Assembly (NCBI GenBank): GCA_011947345.1
Contig: JAAVTG010000675.1
Coordinates: forward strand, 124,001 to 188,000
Source of the DNA: Phytophthora quininea
Taxonomy: Eukaryota; Oomycota; Peronosporomycetes; Peronosporales; Peronosporaceae
Reading direction: 5' to 3'
Length of the DNA stretch: 64,000 bases
The notes under the pieces were generated by a model. The model saw only the letters and a program-made list of their open reading frames with translations. It made no database searches and was not told the DNA's origin. How positions within the stretch are numbered: position 1 is the stretch's first letter; every line of letters begins with the position of its first letter. A program made the position numbers and the translations under genes. Below are positions 25,628 to 41,089 of this stretch, in pieces.

Positions 25628-25755
25628 GCTCTTACGATCTCGATCTCGCTCGCTTGATGCGCTGATCGACCTCGTGCTCTATGCAAAATTACACGTAAAA
25701 TACCGTAATATAAAGTCCGATACGCACCAGATCTCTTGCTCTCCATTGCCGTCCA

Positions 25756-28700
25756 TGGACGCCCATCCAGAGCCGCAGGAAGAGCCCGCGCGGCACCGCG
25801 GCCAGCCAAAAAGCGCGCCTTCGCAACACAAGCAAAGACTACTCAACCAGCACTCGAAGACGGCCAAGTCTCCAGCAGAGAGGCGGCTGTTGAAGCCGCT
25901 TTGGGCGACTACCGAGACGCCACGTGGTTCCAGGCTGGAGAGGGAGACCTGGTGTTCGCCCAGTGGCTGCTGGGGCGCTGCAATGGAGTGGGTGACACTA
26001 CATCTCCGCAGTCGCCGGAGAACTGCGGCCGCATGTTTGGGCTGTTCAAGACGCAGAGGAAGCTGCGACTGGAGCTGGCCATGGGCAACAGGAGGGCCGA
26101 GGCGGGCGGGGAAGAAGAGGAGGCCGACGAGCAGGAACAAGACGCCGAGGCAGAGCAAGAAGCGGCCGATGCCGAGCAAGTCGACCTGTGGACGGTGCAG
26201 CAGATCGTGGTGCAAGTTGGGGACGTGCTGAAACCGTCGAGGAAGGCGCTGCAGCTGCTGCAGAGGCAGGCGGAGACGCAGAACCGCCGCTTTGAAGGCG
26301 GACTGGAGAAGATCGTGGTGAACGAGGTGGTGGAGAACGCTACGGAGCTGGTGCTGAGTCGAGCGACGTTGGAACACGAGCAACTGCTGAGACGCTGGAA
26401 GGAGATTTTACAGGAGCAGGCAGAGGAGGAGGTGAAGACTGTTCCTGAGGTGGAGGAGGCTGCAGACGGCGAACACGACTCTGACCTTGCTGCTACTAAA
26501 ACCAAGAAACAGGAACGCAGGGAGAAGAATGCGCGCATGAAAAAGAGCAAGAGCAAGTCGTCTGAAGAAGTGGCCTGCCAGCAAGTAGAGTCGTTTTTAA
26601 TGTTCTTAAAGGAGTCAGGACAGAAGCAAGCGCACGCGCCGGACTCGACGACATCGTCAGATGCCGAGAAATTGTGGACCTCGGAGCTGCAGCGGATTGT
26701 AGAGCTGTCCAGCATTGAGCCAGAAGAGGAACAGCGGCGCTTAGATGTCACTCGCGACATCCAGACCGTGTTACGCCACAACATCAGTAAATGGCGCCAC
26801 TGTGAAGTCGTGCTCTTCGGCAGCTCCATGTCTCGCTATGGTTCCCGAAGTTCCGACCTGGATATGTGCCTGCTTCCGACGGGACGTCGCGTTGGGCAAA
26901 ATCTGGAGCCGCCAAAGCCAGTGGTGGGAGCACGTCAACTGCGGCATCTTATGAATAATAAAGTTGGAGAGGACGGCCACGAACCGTCCACGACTGCTGA
27001 AAACGCTGAGCAGCTTCGGGAATTGCGAGCACAGGTGCACAAAAGTATCGAGAAGCTTACGCAGAGCCTTAACACACTGGATCGATCCGAAAGGAAGAGC
27101 GACAAACACGCCAAGCAGCGCCGTCAGCTGGTGTTCTTCAATACTCAGATGCGGCTACTCCGCAACGCTATCATCGCAGACCTGACTAAATTGGTTGGGG
27201 AAGAGGAGGCTCGAAACAGTTCCTCAGCAACAACCAAGGCTGCCAACCTCAAAACAGTCATCGCGGCCAGTAGGCGTCGGAGCGATGATCTGTACTTGCT
27301 CCGAACCATTTTACAGCGCGCCAAGTGCGAAGTTCGCCACGTGATTGCTGGAGCTCGCGTCCCAATCATTCGTTTTTACACACCCGTAGCGGACGCGAAT
27401 ACGAATGTGACCTGTGCTTCGAGAACGTGCTGGCTACTCGCAACACGTTACTTCTACGTGCTTACGCCTCGTTCGATGGTCGTGCCCGTGCGCTGGGACT
27501 TGCTGTAAAGCACTGGGCCAAGCAACGTGGCATCAGTGATGCTGCCATGGGATTCCTGAGCTCCTATTCTTTCGTGTTGCTGAGTATTTACTACCTCCAG
27601 GTGGTGCACGTGCTGCCGAATTTGCAAGACCCCGACTGCTCGAGCAAGCTGGCATCGCTCCAGAATACTACAACGAAGTGAACATCGCATTTTGTGCAGA
27701 TGTTATTGCTGCTAGATCTTTTCACAAGCAGCACACACCAGCAATCGAGGCCTCCGAGGTTTCCCTGACGACATTGCTTTTGGGCTTCTTCGAGTTCTTC
27801 GCGACAAAGTTTGACTACGCGAAGAGCGTTGTGCTCGTTCGATCTCCCGAGACCCAAGCAGCGAAAATTGCTCATTGGGGAAGCCGCAAGGCCAAAACAT
27901 GGCGCATGAGCATCCAAGATCCCCTAGAAACCTCACGCGACCTCGGCGTCGTCCTGCAGTTCAAGGGTCAAGAAAAATCATTTGCGAGTTCCGTCGTGCA
28001 CACGAACTGCTTCTGCGTGGCGCGAGTTTCTCGGAGGAGATCTGTGAAGTGGAGGTGAAGGCCACCGTGAAAGCAGGCAAAACTGCAGACAAAGTGGACG
28101 CTGAAACTGTGGAGAAGAAATCGAAGCAGAAACAAAATGACGGAGAGAAAAAGCGATCGTATGTGGTGATATTGCAAAGCGATGACCAAGAGCTGACGAA
28201 ACTGATCGTCGAGGACCTTTTCAAAGATTTTGAAAAGTCTTTCCAGATTGGCAAGGTGATCGAGATGCAGCCAGAGGACGGTGCAGACAGGACCGAGTGC
28301 AAGGAGAAGCAATGGCAGGTGGAAGTTCTGTCCAGGGCTCAGCAGTGCCCTCGCACATTAGTCTATAAAACGCGTGTGGACTGGCGAGCTGCGGATGGCC
28401 GGACCGGCCGCGTGTGGATTCATCATCAGGCATTGTATACGACGCCACCATGCCGCACGTGTCTGTCCCCGGAGCACATAACTCGTCGTTGTGTATTAAA
28501 AGAAGAAGGTGACGCCAAACAGGATGGCCAAACGACGGAAAAGAATCGTCGCCGTCATTTACTTCGAGTAACACTTGGCGGTACGCACTCTGGGGCTTTG
28601 ATGAAGAAGGAGCGCCGCAACAAACAGCAGCAGCACTGCAGCGACGCTGCTTCTAACCATATAAACGGCTGCAAATCGAAGCCAAACACGAAGCAGAGCA

Positions 28701-28972: not shown

Positions 28973-31900
28973 CTAGCCGTCAGCCGTAGCTAGGTTCTCT
29001 GACAATTGCGTTGCAGTACTTTGCTCGAGTGAGACATCGGCAGGAGGTGAAGTTGGGAGCAGAAGACTTGACAATATCCGTGGCGACTCGTTGTCGATGG
29101 CTTTCAATGTCGGCGACGGGATCAGTGACTTGCCTTCTATGGGTTTGTCTTCAGCTTCTACCAGGTCTACGGGATCCGTCATCTTCGACATATCGCCATC
29201 GAAGCTATCCAGGGGCTCTGGCGCGACGGAACTATTCCTCTTTGAAAGAGACGCCGGATGATCGCCAGTGCCAGTCGCTGCTCGTCGGATATGACGAAAG
29301 ACGTTGTTACACAACTTCGCTTCCGATCAAAACAGGGCAGCTCTGCTTTGACGCCACTAACGTTATGGAGCTGGCCGTTGGGCACAATCAGCTGGAGGAT
29401 CGGTCGGAACGAAGCAAACGCGTCAATCTCCCTCCCCACCGAGAGAAACCGGGCTGTCACCTTTAACGTGTTCTTGCGGTGGATGGTGGCGCTCGATACT
29501 TTGTCACTTTCCTCGGAAGGATCTTCATCTGAAGTCGAATTGGCGTCTTGAATCTCCTCATTCTTACGGCGAATGGCTTCGAGTACTGCCGCGCCCCACT
29601 CCGTCTCCGTAGCCGTCACCATAGAACCTACTCGATCCTTGTCCTTCACCATGTGGACTGCTTCGGCAGCAATTTCATACGCTACCCTAGTGATCCGGTG
29701 ACTTTGTAAAACACTAAGCAAGCCTTCAGAAGAGAGCGATAATAAATCACACGCACGTAATGTGCGAATGGTGCAAATGCTGACCGAGCATCCTAGAATT
29801 CCTTTATCACCAAAATACGTGCCTTTCGAAATACTTGAGCCACGGTTTGGTTGGGAGTTGATGGTTGAAAAGAGATATCCACGGACGACAAAGTACATGG
29901 AGCGTGTAATACTTCCTTCCACCAAGACATTTTCGCCGCGAGGGTAGCCTTCAAACCTCAACTGCTGCGCAATATCCAGCATGAGTCTGTTCACCATGTC
30001 GAACTCATCAGGATGCGGCAATGGCCGAAATATGTCGTTGACAAATGAGTGCAACGGAGCTTCTGCAATGACGAGGATCGAATCTGTGCGAATACAAGTG
30101 GGGACATCGTCCAGGAACGATTGATAGTCCACGCCTCGATGTGATGACCACAAGGACGATAAGAAAGCTTGCGCACGTCCTTTAAGTTCGCCAGTGATCT
30201 TCCAGCGCGATAAATACAACTCCACTGCGATATGGTTCTTCCGGTATTCAACCTCGTTGCTAATATACGAAATAAAGAGGTTCGCGAACTCGCCGATCAT
30301 GAACGCCATCGTTAGTAAACCGATGAAGCACACTGTGATTGCAAACGCGAAGTGGAAGATCGTATCTGGTAAAAGGTCCGCCCCTTCTTCAGAAACGAAG
30401 TCGTGGCGAAGAAGCAGCCTCTCAGTAACCGAATAGTGCGGTGTCCCGCAGGATCTGAAAGAGTCGCATCAGGTAACCAAGCATTCCACTCATTACCAAA
30501 ATGATCGAACACAGCCACGGCAAAATATAAGCACGCACTCCAGTACATGAGCAGGATGTACAGCATAGACGCAGTCCGCAAACGATGGATCTCTTTATGA
30601 ATACTGCCGCGATTGATTTCGTCCATATAATGCAAGAAATTGCGCAATTTTAGGCAACGATTGATGCTGTATACCGGGCTTGATGAGATACTTGACAGCA
30701 GGTAGTCGAGGGGTAGTGCTGCTAGAATATCCCAGGCCAGTCTTTCGTTCTTGTACGCCTCTCGATGGTCCTGCTCATATAAGTCTACCGACTCGCTGGA
30801 ACTTTGGACTCGCCAGTTTACCCAAATATCGGCCACATAGAGCACTTCGCAAAAGATTTCTAGTTCACGAATGACAACAGGTAACCAGTCTGTGTGCTCC
30901 ATTGAGTCGAACGAAATTCGATACGGGACAACGATGGACATGAACATTGTAGCAGAGATGACAAGCTTGATCCATGAGAGGTGGTAGCTACTCTGGGCGG
31001 GAACTCCGTGGAAAAGCACGGTCAACACCTTCGGCATGCCAAAACGGTCCTTTGGGCGTAAATGTCGTGAGGGATGAGCTACAGCCGACGTTGGTCCTGC
31101 GCGTCGAGACACTGTCTCCCGCCGACTGGCTTTGCTAGCAGTTGAGCGAGAGCGCTTGTGCCGCGCAGATATCACTGCCTGCTCCATTGTTTCAGCGTAG
31201 GCGTTCATGTGATCCTCTTCCGTTAAAACCGAATGCATCGAGTTATGTCTCTCCAACTTGGCAATGTGAGTCAGTCGTAGTTGTTGCTGCTGCAAGTTGA
31301 TCACGCGAAACACTTTCTTTTCCACTGAGGATACCGGTTAAACACTGTCTCCAGCGAGTTTCTAGACAACTTGTACAGAATCGAGGTAGACGTCGCCAGC
31401 ACGAACGCGTTTCTCACGTTGTCCACAAACAATGCGTTTTCTCCAAAGTAATCTCCACTGGTAACCTGCTTAATTTTTGTCAGCTCATCGATATTTAGTT
31501 TGCTACTTGTCCACTCCGCCTGCGGCTGCGGATGGACTTTGCGACTTGAAAGCCTGGGTAAAATGCTCGATCCTTTGGAAAGAGAAGGTAAGTCGGAGGG
31601 CTTTCTACCTGTTGCAGATGCTCTGCGATTAAGAATCGACTTTTGCTCTTCCTCTTGTGGGATTAGAATATCCAAAAGTCCAGCATATACAAAGTACATG
31701 TCACTGCCTTCTTCACCGTATTTGTAGACGAACTCGTCCTTGACGATCATCACCTGGCTGAAATGTGAGACTAGCATTCGTGTAATGCTTCCATTCATAC
31801 CCGCTAGAAAAGAGACTTTTTCAATCATCGGCTGGAGATGAACCATTCGAATGTCCGTCAGGAGAGATGGCGGGAGATAGCTTTCCAGTAAATGTTCTTT

Positions 31901-34900
31901 CGTAATCGAGTGATACCGCTTAAAAAGAAGTAGGCTTTGAAGCGCTCTTGAATGGGTATTGGTAGGTTAAAATGTTGCAATAAAAGTCTGAATGAGCTTA
32001 GAGTGGCATAATACTCGCGATTTTCCGCATCCATGAGATCAATGATGTCGGCGAAATTCCCAATCACGTAGGCAAAGAGGAAAAAGCCGCAGGTTTGCGT
32101 GATAATGTTAAATAGGCATTGAGATGTCGTCTTGGGAAACTCTCCAGGATATGATGCGGACATGATTCCGAATGACCAAAAGAGCGACGAAAAATATTGC
32201 AAAGGGTATCCTCCTTCGAGCAGCGATGCGTCAGGCAACCACGCCACTTCGCTGATCAGAGTGCTTTCGTGGAAGAATCATTATCCCATTCGCCATGAAT
32301 AAGAGACGCACGCGACCGAAAGTCAAACCAGAAACACCCTAGTGTGTGCGACAGAATAAACGTGTAGTACACAAGCTTGAACAGTCTGATGTGCAGCGTA
32401 AACTTGAGATGTTTGTTCTCCAGCTCAGCGAACAGCACAGGCACCTTAAACAGTCGAACCAGTTTATTCAGGTTGACGATCTCGATATGCTGGTGCCCTA
32501 TGCTGACCAACCCCACTCAATGAAAAATAACGGAATCAGTGCAATCGTGTCAAATACGAACGCTCGCGACTGCATATAGTTCTTTTGATCAGCCGCAAAT
32601 CCATGATCTTGTTTCCGAATTCGTGAAAGCCCAAGTGAAAGCGCACAAACATATCGAGCATGAAGATGACCTCGATCAAGAAGATGACGATATCAAGGAC
32701 CTGATACGCTTCAGAAGACTCGTGACGGAAGCAGATTGTCGACACTGTCAGTACACACTGGATCGTCATCACAATAAAGATCCAAACTTCCCACACAATC
32801 ATCACGCCCGAATCCGGGTCGAATACAAGATCCACGAGCCAACTCAGAAAGAAGGGGTAGTTATGGGACGACGCACTCTCGGTCGCCATCTCCGATGCTT
32901 TGAGAAGTTTGGGGTCCAGAAACCTTTTCTCAAGAGCATACAAAGCTTCCGGCAGACTCTGGAAGGTATTACGCAGTAGTTGCAGCTGCTCTCTCGAAAC
33001 ATGTAGCACGATACACCCGCTGATCGCCATCACACGTTCAGAATAACTGGGAGAGCTATTTACAAAATCTAAAGCAGCAGTGCCGACAAATCCTCCTTGC
33101 GGGACGCTGCGAGGTGTCCCACCATTGGCAATAACGCAAAACTCACCTTCCAACAAGAAGAAGAGCCCTCCTGCATAATCACCCTGTCTGTAGACAACCT
33201 CTCCTTGACCGTAAAGAACAAACTTGACATTCTCAATAAACACTTGCTCCAAATCGTTCAGGACGGGCCGAACGCCAATCAGTAGAGCCAAAGTTTGCAA
33301 TGCAGGCTTGCAGATACTCTTCGTAATGTCACTCTTGATGGCTGCAGGAAGCTCATCAAGCAGTGACCCGATGACAGCACCACGGTGAGCAAACCACCAA
33401 AAGTCCAGAAAGGCGCTGACGCGTTTGTGTATCGTCAACGGGACTTTTGTCGTATCAAAAGAGCTGGATCCGAGATCGGTTGTCGAAGAATTCCTTCTGC
33501 TCATATGCAGAGGCCGTAAATCGCTTCTGGACATTATCGACAACAATTGCTGTGATGAAAAACCCACTCAGCATGAAAACGAGCGCAGCACCAAACTGAG
33601 TATCGCTGGCAGGCTCTGCAGGCTTGCCTAATGCCGTGAGAACATAGCATGCGTAAAACAGCGATCGGAAGTATTGGTTCAACCCGATACTCAGAACCTC
33701 CGAAGAACCAACGACGTACGTAACATTGGCCGCATCAATGTAGTGAGTCGCGTTGAGTCTTCGCAAATGAAGATCAGAAGACGGGATCCAAGCATTGGGG
33801 TCGGAACTGAAACCTTCGAGGTACGTGATGCTGAAGTACAGACACGCCACGGTGTGGTAGAGCATTCCCATCAGCCACCCGAAGAGAAGTAAACGCCGTT
33901 TGTTGTCCAGATGGAGGTACTCGTCGACTTCCTTTAGATGATCTTTTGAGCGCCAGAAGCGAAACAACTTGAATAGGCAAACGTAGCTAGCTTTTGATGT
34001 ACGAGCAATGGCCCAGTGAGGCAACGCACAAAAGAAATCGAAGACAAAGTGTGTCTTGAGGTATTTCTTGGCAGTGGAGGTGGTGTCCCAAATTTTTCCG
34101 CATTCTCCATGTATGACAAGTTGAAATTGAGGTAGATATCGACCCACAGCGCAATGTCCATTAATGTACTCAGTGCATCAATTCCCCAGTTTGGATGACC
34201 CAACGCCTCAAACGTTAGACGAGTGGGAATCACAAACCAGAAGAAAACAAGGTTGATCTGAAGCCCCAAGATCCACCACATACGCTTCCGTGATTCGTAC
34301 TCGATCGCTTTACGTAACAACAGCACGCTCCAGAGAGAGGCTTTTGAGTCTCTTTTCCAACGAAGCTGAGCGGCAACCATTTGCATCACCGGTGGCATTT
34401 TCAAGCTAGCTTTCTTATGGTAGCCCTCATTTTTGCCGAGTTTAGGGGTAACGACGAGCTCAGCTGGCTGCTGCTCGTCCGTCACCGTAGCTTTAGTGCT
34501 CTCTGCTAACTGTTCGGCTTGTATCGCCTCAAAGCGGTGCCCTGAACTGACTGATTGCACACCGAAGTCACCTTTTCCGAGATAACACGTCCAGAGTTTG
34601 ATTTTGTTTGCTGAGCAGAAGCTGCGTCCTTTTTCGCAAGCGCAATTGCGGTAGCCCAGCCAAAACCCGACGCCTTTTCCTTTTGAATGTGTCTGCGTAG
34701 GAGGCTGGAGATCGTTTTCTTCTTTCCTGCTCCGCCTAACCTGGGCAAGTCTCGTGAGTCCCCACTAAATATCCGCCGAGCCATATCTTCAACTTCTCGC
34801 GGGATCATTTTTGCATATTCGGGATATCCCTCGAGTACTCGTTCAACGTGAAACCGGGCCAGTTTGTACAGTGTGCAGTACGTGTTTGTGATCACCGTCG

Positions 34901-36283
34901 CAAACCGAGGACGGTCCAGGAAAATGCTCATCTCGCCGAAGAAGTCGCCCTTCCGTTCTTCTCGCACCTTGACTCCATCAACCATGACATGAAGAACCCC
35001 GAGTTGACGAAATACATCGCGTCGCCTTTGTCTCCAGCGTTAAATATCACAAAAATGCTGGCAGCGAGATGATCTGGAGCAGGCTGGTGATAGCGACAAT
35101 GAACTGGGCATTACAACCTTTAAAAATGACGACGCTAGCCACCATATCTTTCAGCAACGCCACTTGGACATCTTTCCGGATCGACGGGCACAATAAACGC
35201 ATAGCTTCTCGGTCATTAGACTCGGTATGCGTGTAATAGCGCTTCAAATACTCAATCGCTTGGCTCTGTAATTCGTCCGGAACTCGGTGAAATGAAAGCA
35301 AGTGCTTGAACTGGTTTATCCGCGCTTCAGAAGCTTCGTCCTGGCCGCTCTCACACTTTGAAATTAAAAGAACGTGGCACACAGGTACGTGAATAACAGA
35401 AAGCCACAGACCGCCACAAAAATCGTGAAAATGAATGCTGCTATCGTGTGCGGCAGCTCGCCCTCAAACAGACCGGTCATGACTCCAAACGACCAAAAGA
35501 GCGACATAAGGTACTTGGAGTGCGCAGGCTCTTCGTGCTCCGGTTTAGGAGGCAGCCAATGGTCGTGCTGGTCCTCGTCGTACCCGAATAAAAATCTTAT
35601 ACACGCCAGGAAATGCGAAAGCAGCAGGATGATCACGAACACCTTGAACATCTTGAGCACCACAAAGTACTTGGCGTAGACGTCGTCCAGCTGGGCGATG
35701 TACTTGGGTATCCTCCAGATCCTGATGAGCTTGTGCATTTCCAGATAGGCCACCGAAAAGTGCTCTTTCGCTGGCAATAGCGACAGCGGCACTAACGCCA
35801 CCACGTCGAGGATGAATCTGGCCGATTTGACGTACTTGAGCCTCGACTTCTTGGCGTCTCGTGTGACGTCTCCCCTTCGTAGAAGCCAGTGTTGAGCTCC
35901 ACGTAGACGTCGGCCAGGAACAAAATCTCGCATACGTAGACGACGACCAGCTCCGCCATGTGGATGGACGAGGTGTCCTTGAATGTGACGAGGTAGGGCA
36001 GGATGGTGATCTCGTAGATGACGCAGCCCAGCAGCTGGTGCCAGGCCTGGATGAACTTGGAGTTGGGATCGAACGCGTTGCGCACCTCGAAGAGCAGCAG
36101 CTCCACCGAGTTGGAGCGCGGCCGCATCAGCGAGTTGCGCAGTGGGGAGGTGGACGTTAACGTCGTGCTGCGGCGGAGGCGTTCCGCGGCCGATTGCACC
36201 GAGCTGCGACGCCGCGTCGAGCCCGTCCGGACGCGGACGTCCGACTCCTTCCAGTTCGTCGTGTCGCTGGGTGGCACCGTCAT
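28973..36283 (-). CDS. Four-repeat cyclic-nucleotide-binding-domain cation channel, ~2,430 aa
   Basis: One reading path encodes four successive six-TM + CNBD channel units. Approximate TM/CNBD locations are I 35380-36110/34800-35110, II 33520-34330/32940-33270, III 32020-32830/31370-31800 and IV 30270-31010/29680-29980. Pores: I WSFGVMTGLFEGELP, III WSFGIMSASYPGEFP, II YVLTALGKPAEPAS, IV FATTSFLKKGADLLP; none has GYG. CNBD cassettes I (FGEMSIFLDRPRFA) and III (FGENALFVDNVRNA) are canonical; II and IV lack the Arg and are divergent. The join II-III is inside one unbroken frame (32536-33567), so these repeats are truly fused. I-II and III-IV are joined by overlapping frames with no room for a promoter. 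About 14 breaks are inferred (near 29240, 30382, 31317, 31924, 32260, 32512, 32583, 33458, 34094, 34562, 34998, 35062, 35367, 35873), mostly homopolymers. Start is the ATG at 36283. It resembles in layout the four-repeat CNGK channels of sea-urchin sperm. Confidence 0.85.
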
Positions 36284-38899: not shown

Positions 38900-39074
38900 A
38901 GCAATGTGCAAAAGGACGGCGGGACTCGTTGGAAAACCCCGTTGGTATAGTATCATCAGAGCTGCGGCGAGTGGACAAAGAGTGAAAGCGCACACGCAGC
39001 AAGTAGTAATTTAGATGGCTGGATAGGTAGACAAACAGACCAGCTCTGCAGTCGATCAATGCGTCTTCAAAAGC

Positions 39075-41089
39075 ATGTTGAGATTCAACGACGGTCGCGG
39101 CATTGCGCCTTTGAACGCGACAGTTCGCATCTTGACGTCTTGGTCACACTCGATGGAGTTCCTGGTGCACAACATCTCGCACACCGACCTCGTCGTGGAG
39201 CTCTCATGGCTGCGAGAGGACGGCTCCGCCAGCAGCAGCGTCGCCTCCTCGTCGGCCAGCAATCGCCCCGTCGTGGGCAGCGCGCAGGTCGACGGCGTGA
39301 CGGTGCCGCTGTCCGTGCTGGGGAGACCCAAGTTCAGTCTCTTCCAGCAGACCAGCCAGCAGATTCTCGAGCGCGTGCAGGAGCTGCGCCAGCCGCAGGG
39401 CAACGCCACGCACGCGGCGGCGCTGCTGAGCGTCCCCGAGCCAGCAGAAGCCAAGCCGGGCCTGCATCCGAGTCTGCTGGACATCACCGGCGAGCGTTGG
39501 AAGGCGCGATGCCAAGATACGCAGTCGCCTATTGGGTTTAACCTGGCGGACGCGCCGGTCCCCATCGACAGCCAGGAGCTGCTGCGAGACTTCCAGCTGC
39601 GAGGAGAAGTAGAGACCACCAGGCTCGTGGACAAGTACTGGGACCGCGTGGGCATCACGGCCGTCTACTTTCCGTTGGTGGCGCTGCTGCTGCCCAAGTG
39701 GACGCAGGTGCTCAAGGAGTTCCAGTCGGAGGGCAGCAGACAGCTCGTGTACTTGATCAGCGGGGCTGGCATCCCGCGCAACGTGGAGCACTCGACGAGT
39801 GGCAACTCGACGGAGATCACGGCGCAGCTCATCGTGCTGTTCGTGCACCAGTACTACCCGCACATGACGGCGATCCAGGTGCATTCAGGCTCCAACATCT
39901 TCCGCTTCGACGACAATGTGCAGTTCATGACGCGGGAACTGAGACCGCTGCTGGAAGCACATCGAGAGACGCTCGTGGATCGCTGCGGCGATGCCTGGAA
40001 GTCGCACTTTCACGTCACGATCGCGTATGGCGACGGCCCGCCGGCTCGACTGAGCGCGTTGAACGCCTCGTTGCGGATGTACCGGCCGTCTTATCTCCAC
40101 ATCTGGCAGCTCAAGACGTTTTGGCACGAGCGAAAGCTGTCGATGGCGGATGTGGACTTCCACTCGTTCGAGAACATCGAGGCTTCGCCTTGCGTGGCCC
40201 CCAGCAAGGCCGACGCCATGACGCAGATGGTGGTTCGCGAGATGAGGAAGTTCCGCGACCAATTCTTGGCGGCTGAGGACGAGGGCGAGGTGGCCAGCTT
40301 CTGGCTGCGGAAATCGCGCAAGCCCGTGCTGGCCGTGCTGCTCATCGAGAAGCCGCCCACAGCGCCCGGAGAGCGTCCTACGATCTTGGTGCAGCGCGGC
40401 ATGAATTGCGAGGTCTCGATGCCGACGGGGAGTCTGTGCGCTGAGCGCAACGCCATCGGCAGCGCACTAGCAAGCGATCCGACGCTCACTCGGCGCTCGT
40501 TGAAGATGATCGCCGTGCTGGGCTTAAACCTCGGCGGGGGCCGCAGCAACGTCACCAGCCCCACGCCATCTGAATCGAGCGAGCATCGCGGTGACAGCCA
40601 GAAGAAGCCCCCGGCTGGCCGCCCCACATTGGGCCAAACGGCTGAGTCCACTTCAACGTCAAGCGATCCATCTGCTGCCGCCGCGCTAGTCGAGTCTGGC
40701 ATTGCGTCGCCGGTAAACGAGGCGCTGCCGATTCGAGTCCGGCCGAGCTCCGTGCAGAGCTCGCCCGAACACACCTCGGCGGCGGTTGCGAACCCGCCGA
40801 CGCGCAGTAATGGCAGCGCCGGCCGGGGACGTGGCAAGCGACCGGCGGAGAATAAGAACGCCAACTTGACGTCCCCAGGAAGCCCAAACGGCCGCGGACG
40901 TTCTCGTTCGACGAGGTGGCCGTGGAGGAGATGATGCGCGCCGGCGCGGCGCCCGACCGCAACCCGCTGGCCCCGTGCGGCGCCTGCAAGGAGTGGCTGG
41001 TGAAGATCGCGGAGGCCAACCCGTCCTTCCGCGTGGTCACGTTCGAGAACTCGCGGTGTCGGAACGTGTACATTAACCAGCTCATGTGA
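39075..41089 (+). CDS. Cytidine-deaminase-like protein with long N-terminal domain
   Basis: Zinc-dependent deaminase of the cytidine/CDA class. TGSLCAERNAIGSAL (about residue 455) supplies the zinc-ligand Cys and catalytic Glu; PCGACKEWLVKIAEANP (about residue 635) supplies the other two Cys ligands. In ordinary CDAs these motifs are about 35 residues apart; here roughly 178 residues separate them, most of it Ser/Pro/Gly-rich and probably disordered. About 400 residues lie N-terminal, including LVYLISGAGIPRNVEHSTSG and HMTAIQVHSGSNIFRFDDNV, a domain I cannot name with confidence. Total about 670 residues, no intron. The frame breaks near 40876 (CCCC run); beyond it the sequence continues RPRTFSFDEVAVEEMM into PCGAC, so the domain is complete. 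Substrate (free nucleoside, nucleotide or nucleic acid) cannot be told. Confidence 0.8.

Follow-up and report, generated by a model that had tools for sequence, protein, structure and literature searches.

A predicted single-chain channel with four transmembrane and cyclic nucleotide-binding repeats in Phytophthora quininea

Organization of the channel gene

The window analysed here is a stretch of 64,000 nucleotides from Phytophthora quininea (GenBank assembly GCA_011947345.1, contig JAAVTG010000675.1; G000:C669:124001-188000 in our numbering), taken from an assembly of 87.2 Mb in 993 contigs. Its minus strand carries a gene whose open stretches, lying in three frames, encode in order four copies of a six-transmembrane (6TM) ion-transport domain followed by a cyclic nucleotide-binding domain (CNBD) (Table 1). 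Channel subunits of the CNBD class are normally separate molecules. An earlier note on this DNA had proposed that the four units form a single polypeptide, and the domain content agrees with this. An independent genome-wide family search placed four minus-strand CNBDs where they would be expected (34830-34997, 32974-33213, 31331-31477 and 29698-29946), and the Pfam family cNMP_binding scored above its cut-off in repeats I to IV (36.6, 38.0, 41.8 and 33.5 bits, respectively). Ion_trans passed its cut-off in repeat I only (61.4 bits), because breaks in the frame cut the domains of repeats II-IV, the pieces of which reach 20-24 bits, short of the 25 required. In each of the four intact relatives scanned (P0003, P0012, P0021 and P0026, from Phytophthora, Globisporangium, Pythium and Lagenidium), exactly four Ion_trans and four cNMP_binding stretches were found; P0021 belongs to Pythium oligandrum, a mycoparasite used in biocontrol. 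Domains and alignments, from which the transmembrane helices were read, place the gene in the CNBD-channel class, which is defined by a 6TM ion-transport domain, a C-linker and a CNBD and includes the cyclic nucleotide-gated (CNG), HCN, KCNH and KAT relatives.

No intron was seen in the gene (28973..36283). Repeats II and III are fused within one unbroken frame, as the earlier note had stated. Its further description, that four complete units follow one another without stop or spacer, needs amendment. The chain is free of stops only after read-through of the frame breaks described below, and spacers of about 135 (I-II), 16 (II-III) and 79 (III-IV) residues exist between the repeats, for the repeat limits set here. 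The units are indeed four 6TM and CNBD repeats, but CNBDs II and IV are incomplete in that they lack key ligand-binding residues.

Table 1. Coordinates of the channel gene and its parts within the window
Feature	Position	Strand	CNBD or cassette	Description
Whole gene	28973..36283	(-)		ATG at 36283; last codon ends at 28976, followed by the stop codon (28973-28975, low end); length about 2,440 codons, frame broken
Repeat I	34767..36076	(-)	cassette 34893-34949	S1-S6, C-linker, CNBD with cassette Glu and Arg
Pore loop I	35445..35501	(-)		...MTGLFEGELP; acid at CNG filter Glu site
Repeat II	32914..34365	(-)	CNBD 32974-33213	S1-S6, C-linker, altered CNBD with Thr in place of the cassette Glu, a longer loop and probable loss of the Arg site
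Pore loop II	33599..33661	(-)		...LTALGKPAEP; Lys/Arg at CNG filter Glu site
II-III fusion point	32539..33567	(-)		343-codon unbroken frame containing CNBD II as well as the first repeat III helices
Repeat III	31281..32865	(-)	cassette 31400-31456	S1-S6, C-linker, CNBD with cassette Glu and Arg
Pore loop III	32122..32184	(-)		...MSASYPGEFP; CNG filter Glu site variable, conserved Glu two places on
Repeat IV	29650..31043	(-)	cassette 29767-29823	S1-S6, C-linker, altered CNBD without phosphate-binding Arg
Pore loop IV	30372..30428	(-)		...ATTSFLKKGRTF; Lys-Lys-x-Arg, basic at CNG filter Glu site
C-terminal tail	28973..29649	(-)		

Continuity of the reading unit

A frame-shift-tolerant alignment to P0003 (residues 61-2330) reveals 14 frame breaks over about 7 kb of the gene, and one further frame change occurs in the C-terminal tail of the read-through; no Pfam family was found in the last open stretch of that tail (28976-29326). 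Introns were considered as the cause of these frame changes and rejected, since the open frames overlap or abut and the orthologue aligns straight through with single-base shifts. Such a number of breaks could be taken to mean that the gene is a pseudogene or a decaying copy, a reading that we consider very improbable. All 14 breaks are of one sign, and 12 of them lie no more than 8 bases from a run of at least four identical bases, compared with 15% of 20,000 random places. Several loci of the Cpn60/TCP1 family, which has essential members, are broken alike in the same assembly. They show abutting frame changes without a gap (for example C858:107732-108382 and 108381-109199), and those on contigs C3 and C636 are in three pieces each; those on C341, C570 and C639 are whole. 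Because the breaks share one sign, mostly adjoin base runs and have counterparts in the chaperonin genes, they are most likely assembly indels rather than signs of decay, and the window copy has intact filter and cassette residues in repeats I and III. In the raw window the joins I-II and III-IV also cross frame changes, which could mean that separate channel genes lying side by side (four, or two plus two) only seem to be fused. We give this almost no credence in view of the paralogues in the same genome and of the relatives elsewhere. DNA matches of the gene in its own genome consist of one full-length match, which is the gene itself, and ten partial ones on contigs C264, C747 and C507; in the DNA around the partial ones, six paralogous loci were found (four on C264, one on C747 and one on C507), all with the order I-II-III-IV. 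The joins at the seven loci were read from the DNA and not from gene models, with the best-scoring repeat class taken at each place. A single unbroken frame contains the I-II join at three of the seven (C264a, C264c and C747), the II-III join at four (the window, C264a, C264d and C507) and the III-IV join at two (C264c and C264d), while C264b has no join within one unbroken frame. Every join is thus contained in a single frame in at least two of the seven loci, and one such frame of 1,070 codons extends from part of CNBD II to CNBD IV.

Relatives were sought with the X-joined read-through as the query (E<=0.001), which gave 144 proteins, the best 120 of which were listed. The search admits only proteins of 0.55-1.75 times the query length, so that short split gene models were unable to appear. 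The best-listed relatives cover 98-99% of the query, and the top one, from P. lilii, matches at 69% over 98% of it. All organisms named among the best 120 of the 144 matches are oomycetes, and full-length relatives have been annotated as one protein in each of five genera (Phytophthora, Nothophytophthora, Globisporangium, Pythium and Lagenidium). Neither Saprolegniales nor downy mildews are named among these 120, and the matches of two metagenome-type sources come without an organism name. In the alignment of the window with the 120 relatives (121 rows), all four repeats are present at 380 or more residues in 88 rows, and the order and identity of the repeats are fixed in the rows used. The earlier note had called the gene a covalent pseudotetramer and had suggested a search of other oomycete proteomes for such a protein; within the length limits of our search, single proteins with four Ion_trans and four cNMP_binding stretches do occur in four genera. 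We refer to the gene and these relatives as family A.

Pore loops and ligand sites

Filter and cassette columns were counted in the 121-row alignment. Each of the four pore loops is conserved in its own manner, and they are unequal among the repeats. The nearest relatives of solved structure are CNGA2, CNGA3 and CNGA1 (E about 1e-37 to 1e-33), followed by SthK, HCN4 and hERG, and in phmmer the Glu of repeat I aligns with the filter Glu of CNGA2 and CNGA3. At this site repeat I is acidic (E 110 and D 8 of 118 rows). Repeat II mostly has a basic residue there (K 55 and R 52 of 117, the other ten being L 4, Q 2, S 2, T 1 and E 1), and repeat III is variable (P 31, E 28, Q 22, A 15, T 13, S 10, F 1 and L 1 of 121), with a Glu two places further on in 113 of the 121 rows. 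The filter of repeat IV has Lys in 118 of 118 rows, Lys (112) or Arg (6) at the next position, and Arg in 84, Lys in 29 and another residue in 5 of the 118 at three places past the first Lys. In MAFFT alignments that included one animal CNGA row (four set-ups), it is this last Arg/Lys of repeat IV that falls at the Glu site, and Arg or Lys stands at the Glu site of repeat II, in the two relatives shown. As both candidate alignments place a basic residue there, the Glu-site residue of repeat IV is basic in nearly all rows. When the first Lys is taken as the column for repeat IV, the pattern acid-basic-any-basic is found in 101 of 111 rows, the 111 being those with a letter in each of the four columns. 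GYG does not occur in the filter columns of family A, either in the window copy or in the 121-row alignment. The view of the earlier note that these pores are not K+-selective is supported in that all four lack the K+ signature, and the GYG/GFG filter of the CNGK channels is accordingly missing from family A. With an acid in I and basic residues in II and IV, the filter is also not of the TIGE type of the metazoan CNG channel.

The Glu and Arg of the phosphate cassette matter for ligand binding in CNBDs. CNBD I has the Glu in 106 of 106 rows and the Arg in 105, and CNBD III has each of them in 119 of 120. CNBD IV has no Arg in any of 117 rows, the residue being mostly Ser or Gly. In CNBD II the Glu is replaced by Thr in 104 of 115 rows, and the Arg site is not kept in any of eight rows under three alignment set-ups, so that this domain, too, probably lacks the phosphate-binding Arg. 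In 99 of 101 rows, CNBDs I and III both have the Glu and the Arg while CNBD IV has no Arg. Two of the four ligand sites, I and III, are apparently intact, and II and IV do not have the cassette pair of a cyclic nucleotide-binding CNBD.

Evolution of the repeats

Trees were made with 63 and 56 repeats, 31 of which belong to family A (the window copy and seven relatives); animal CNGK rows and single-unit oomycete channels were not part of them. Each repeat class of family A forms a clade (100/100). Repeats I and III pair at 100/99, and II and IV pair at 98/97 and 100/98 in the two trees, which implies that a two-repeat ancestor was duplicated and hence that there were two rounds of duplication. 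A single origin of all four repeats has a support of 54/7, and in one tree the animal CNGA row stands beside II and IV (90/82). The metagenomic protein P0206, which has four repeats and GYGD filters, is in a separate clade (100/98 and 100/97 in the two trees). Family B, a second oomycete family that is described below, does not group with family A; its own repeats group at 84/82 in one tree, from which P0209 and the HCN rows were left out, but not in the other, and with these rows included its single origin has a p-AU of 0.06. Since P0206 is in a clade of its own and family B stands apart, separate fourfold fusions are the better reading of these trees without animal CNGK. No entry named CNGK was among the best 120 of 226 matches to a mixed animal/bacterial channel query, which were mostly vertebrate HCN.

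The earlier note had raised the possibility of an independent invention in oomycetes and had proposed a phylogeny of each repeat against CNGK and other channels. The first is likely, considering that P0206 is in its own clade and that the oomycete repeats pair among themselves, though with a single-origin support of 54/7 and no CNGK rows it falls short of proof. The phylogeny provided the class clades and the (I,III),(II,IV) pairing; the CNGK-like P0206 stands apart in it.

Proposed mechanism

From the sequence, the product of the gene is probably a CNBD-class channel in which one chain makes up a pseudotetramer, with an unequal pore and with gating through CNBDs I and III. The sequence itself holds four 6TM and CNBD repeats in one reading unit, ordered I-II-III-IV, with repeat-specific pores and CNBDs and with the pairing described above. 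One chain would form one pore of four unequal quadrants, in which I is opposite III and II is opposite IV. Cyclic nucleotide binding at the intact, diagonally placed CNBDs I and III would pull on the C-linkers and open the pore, and CNBDs II and IV would act as structural partners that bind weakly or not at all. The filter ring would present an acid in I and basic residues in II and IV in place of the K+ signature and of the glutamate ring of CNG channels. With such a ring the channel should be non-K+-selective and should allow poor Ca2+ entry; a flow of monovalent cations is our first guess. Such an unequal ring would be fixed by fusion, whereas separately made subunits would offer no guarantee of it. 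From the published expression of this gene class one may guess at a role in sporangia or zoospores: nearly all cyclic-nucleotide genes of P. infestans, CNG channels included, are reported to be expressed mostly in these stages. That report is the only hint of the function in zoospore chemotaxis that the earlier note had suggested.

Several points weigh against this proposal. The tree program warns that repeats II and IV of family A are long branches that meet. The acid-basic-any-basic pattern is broken in 10 of the 111 rows, always at repeat II, and two basic filter residues may mean weak conduction or none. The loop of CNBD II is longer and has an Arg or His slightly past the Arg site in 101 of 116 rows (R 62, H 39), for which reason the loss of Arg is less sure in II than in IV, and CNBD IV keeps the cassette Glu in 101 of 117. 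The support is from sequence, the relatives are mostly gene predictions, and the 121 rows are paralogues and close species, so that the counts are not independent events.

The two basic positions in the filter ring could also belong to a non-conducting pseudo-channel, that is, a voltage- or ligand-sensing membrane scaffold in which the basic filter blocks ions. This is unlikely in our opinion, as the pore loops are conserved and retain acidic residues in I, II and III, beyond what a plug would need, although this is a weak argument. Direct membership in the CNGK family, by common ancestry or transfer, is a further reading. CNGK of sea urchin, zebrafish and choanoflagellate is also one chain of four 6TM and CNBD repeats, and the same (I,III),(II,IV) pairing is reported for it in a 2020 survey (PMC7576140). 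As is predicted here, not all of its CNBDs are functional: a single cGMP, bound to the third of them, gates the sea-urchin channel (PMC4749565). The same source gives GYG/GFG as the CNGK filter, whereas family A has acid-basic-variable-basic and no GYG in the columns counted; CNBDs I and III of family A both keep the key residues, and its hosts are oomycetes. The four-repeat GYGD protein P0206 moreover forms its own clade at 100/97. From these filters and from trees without animal CNGK rows, we regard CNGK membership as highly improbable, and a conducting, unequal channel gated through I and III is still the reading that we prefer.

Comparison with other channels

Metazoan CNGA1-3 are the best solved-structure matches of repeat I (E about 1e-37), in which their filter Glu is kept. 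Metazoan CNG channels are made of four separate subunits with the filter Glu, whereas family A has Lys/Arg in II and IV and an unconserved residue in III. Voltage-gated Na+ channels and NALCN have four unequal repeats with mixed-charge filters (DEKA and EEKE, respectively). The likeness of family A to voltage-gated Na+/Ca2+ channels and NALCN is in principle only, in the unequal repeats and the mixed-charge ring, as they belong to a different channel branch, and they are not known to have a CNBD.

Fused CNBD-channel repeats were described in oomycetes in the 2020 survey, partly in the same lineage (Phytophthora infestans and Aphanomyces invadans; PMC7576140), but these tandem channels have exactly two repeats and family A has four. 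In P. infestans up to 25 CNGA1 homologues have been reported (PMC4820453), and the part of that paper available to us contains no statement of a four-repeat CNBD channel. Among the titles and abstracts listed in a search of open-licence papers there was no description of such a channel in oomycetes; in the available parts of these sources, four-repeat CNBD channels are described from animals and choanoflagellates only, and the fused oomycete ones only as two-repeat channels. The same 2020 survey states that few filters depart from TVGY/FG and that only one clade, metazoan TIGE, is exceptional (PMC7576140); by its predicted filters, family A would be a second.

It may be, and we offer this tentatively as somewhat doubtful, that oomycetes evolved, apart from animals, a single-chain family with a fixed acid-basic-variable-basic ring and alternating binding and non-binding CNBDs. 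If true, this pore chemistry would be undescribed for the CNBD class in the portions of the literature examined, and the family would join the Na+ channel type as the second example in nature of an unequal filter fixed by the fusion of subunits. As a conserved oomycete family, with seven loci found in this genome, it would constitute a natural covalent concatemer, suited to the questions of how many subunits must bind ligand for a CNBD channel to open and whether an asymmetric filter is what drives subunits to fuse. Since the named family-A matches among the best 120 of 144 are all from oomycetes, the family may also be of interest as a target specific to oomycetes, an argument that PMC7576140 makes for the two-repeat channels.

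A second multi-repeat family

The same genome contains a second multi-repeat CNBD channel family, family B, on contig C573 (L025, L026 and L028) and perhaps on C206 (L031). A search with family B gave 86 matches, in which every named organism is an oomycete, Albugo included; the weakest match, P0206, does not belong to the family. The full-length proteins are mostly of 2,300-2,900 residues, about 2,700. One of them, P0125, has four CNBD stretches, with two Ion_trans and one Ion_trans_2 stretch above threshold, and a repeat profile built from family A detects four repeats. Family B thus resembles family A in having four CNBDs in one chain, but its filters are K+-channel-like though unequal, the commonest in 84 aligned rows being LLGYDD / VGYGD / LVGSRE / LFYGD, and it is separate in the trees. 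Judging from these sequences, oomycetes appear to hold two four-repeat CNBD-channel families.

Other multi-repeat proteins were found in metagenomes. P0206 (2,040 amino acids) is a CNGK-like CNBD channel, with four repeats that each have a GYGD filter. P0209 (3,590 amino acids) has six Ion_trans and six cNMP_binding stretches, with an extra CNBD piece at the very start; this single predicted model has at least six channel repeats, perhaps seven or more.

Neighbouring genes and other loci

A poly(A) polymerase gene (MTPAP-like palm and PAP_assoc) lies beside the channel gene at 25712-28055 on the plus strand and is likewise split over frames. In P. nicotianae, model P0005 (2,732 amino acids) joins the channel and the poly(A) polymerase in one protein, so the neighbourhood seems to be kept, though either the orientation or the model is doubtful. 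A 635-codon frame at 39027-40931 on the plus strand contains an LmjF365940-type CDD/CDA-like deaminase domain (E 1.9e-44). Elsewhere in the genome, CNBD matches of equal score occur on two contigs (C669:242489 and C925:41841, and likewise on C573 and C866), so that both haplotypes have probably been retained in parts of the assembly. At C548:191201 (L029) a 1,263-codon open frame has at least one CNBD by the family search and, by eye, a patatin-like stretch and no channel.

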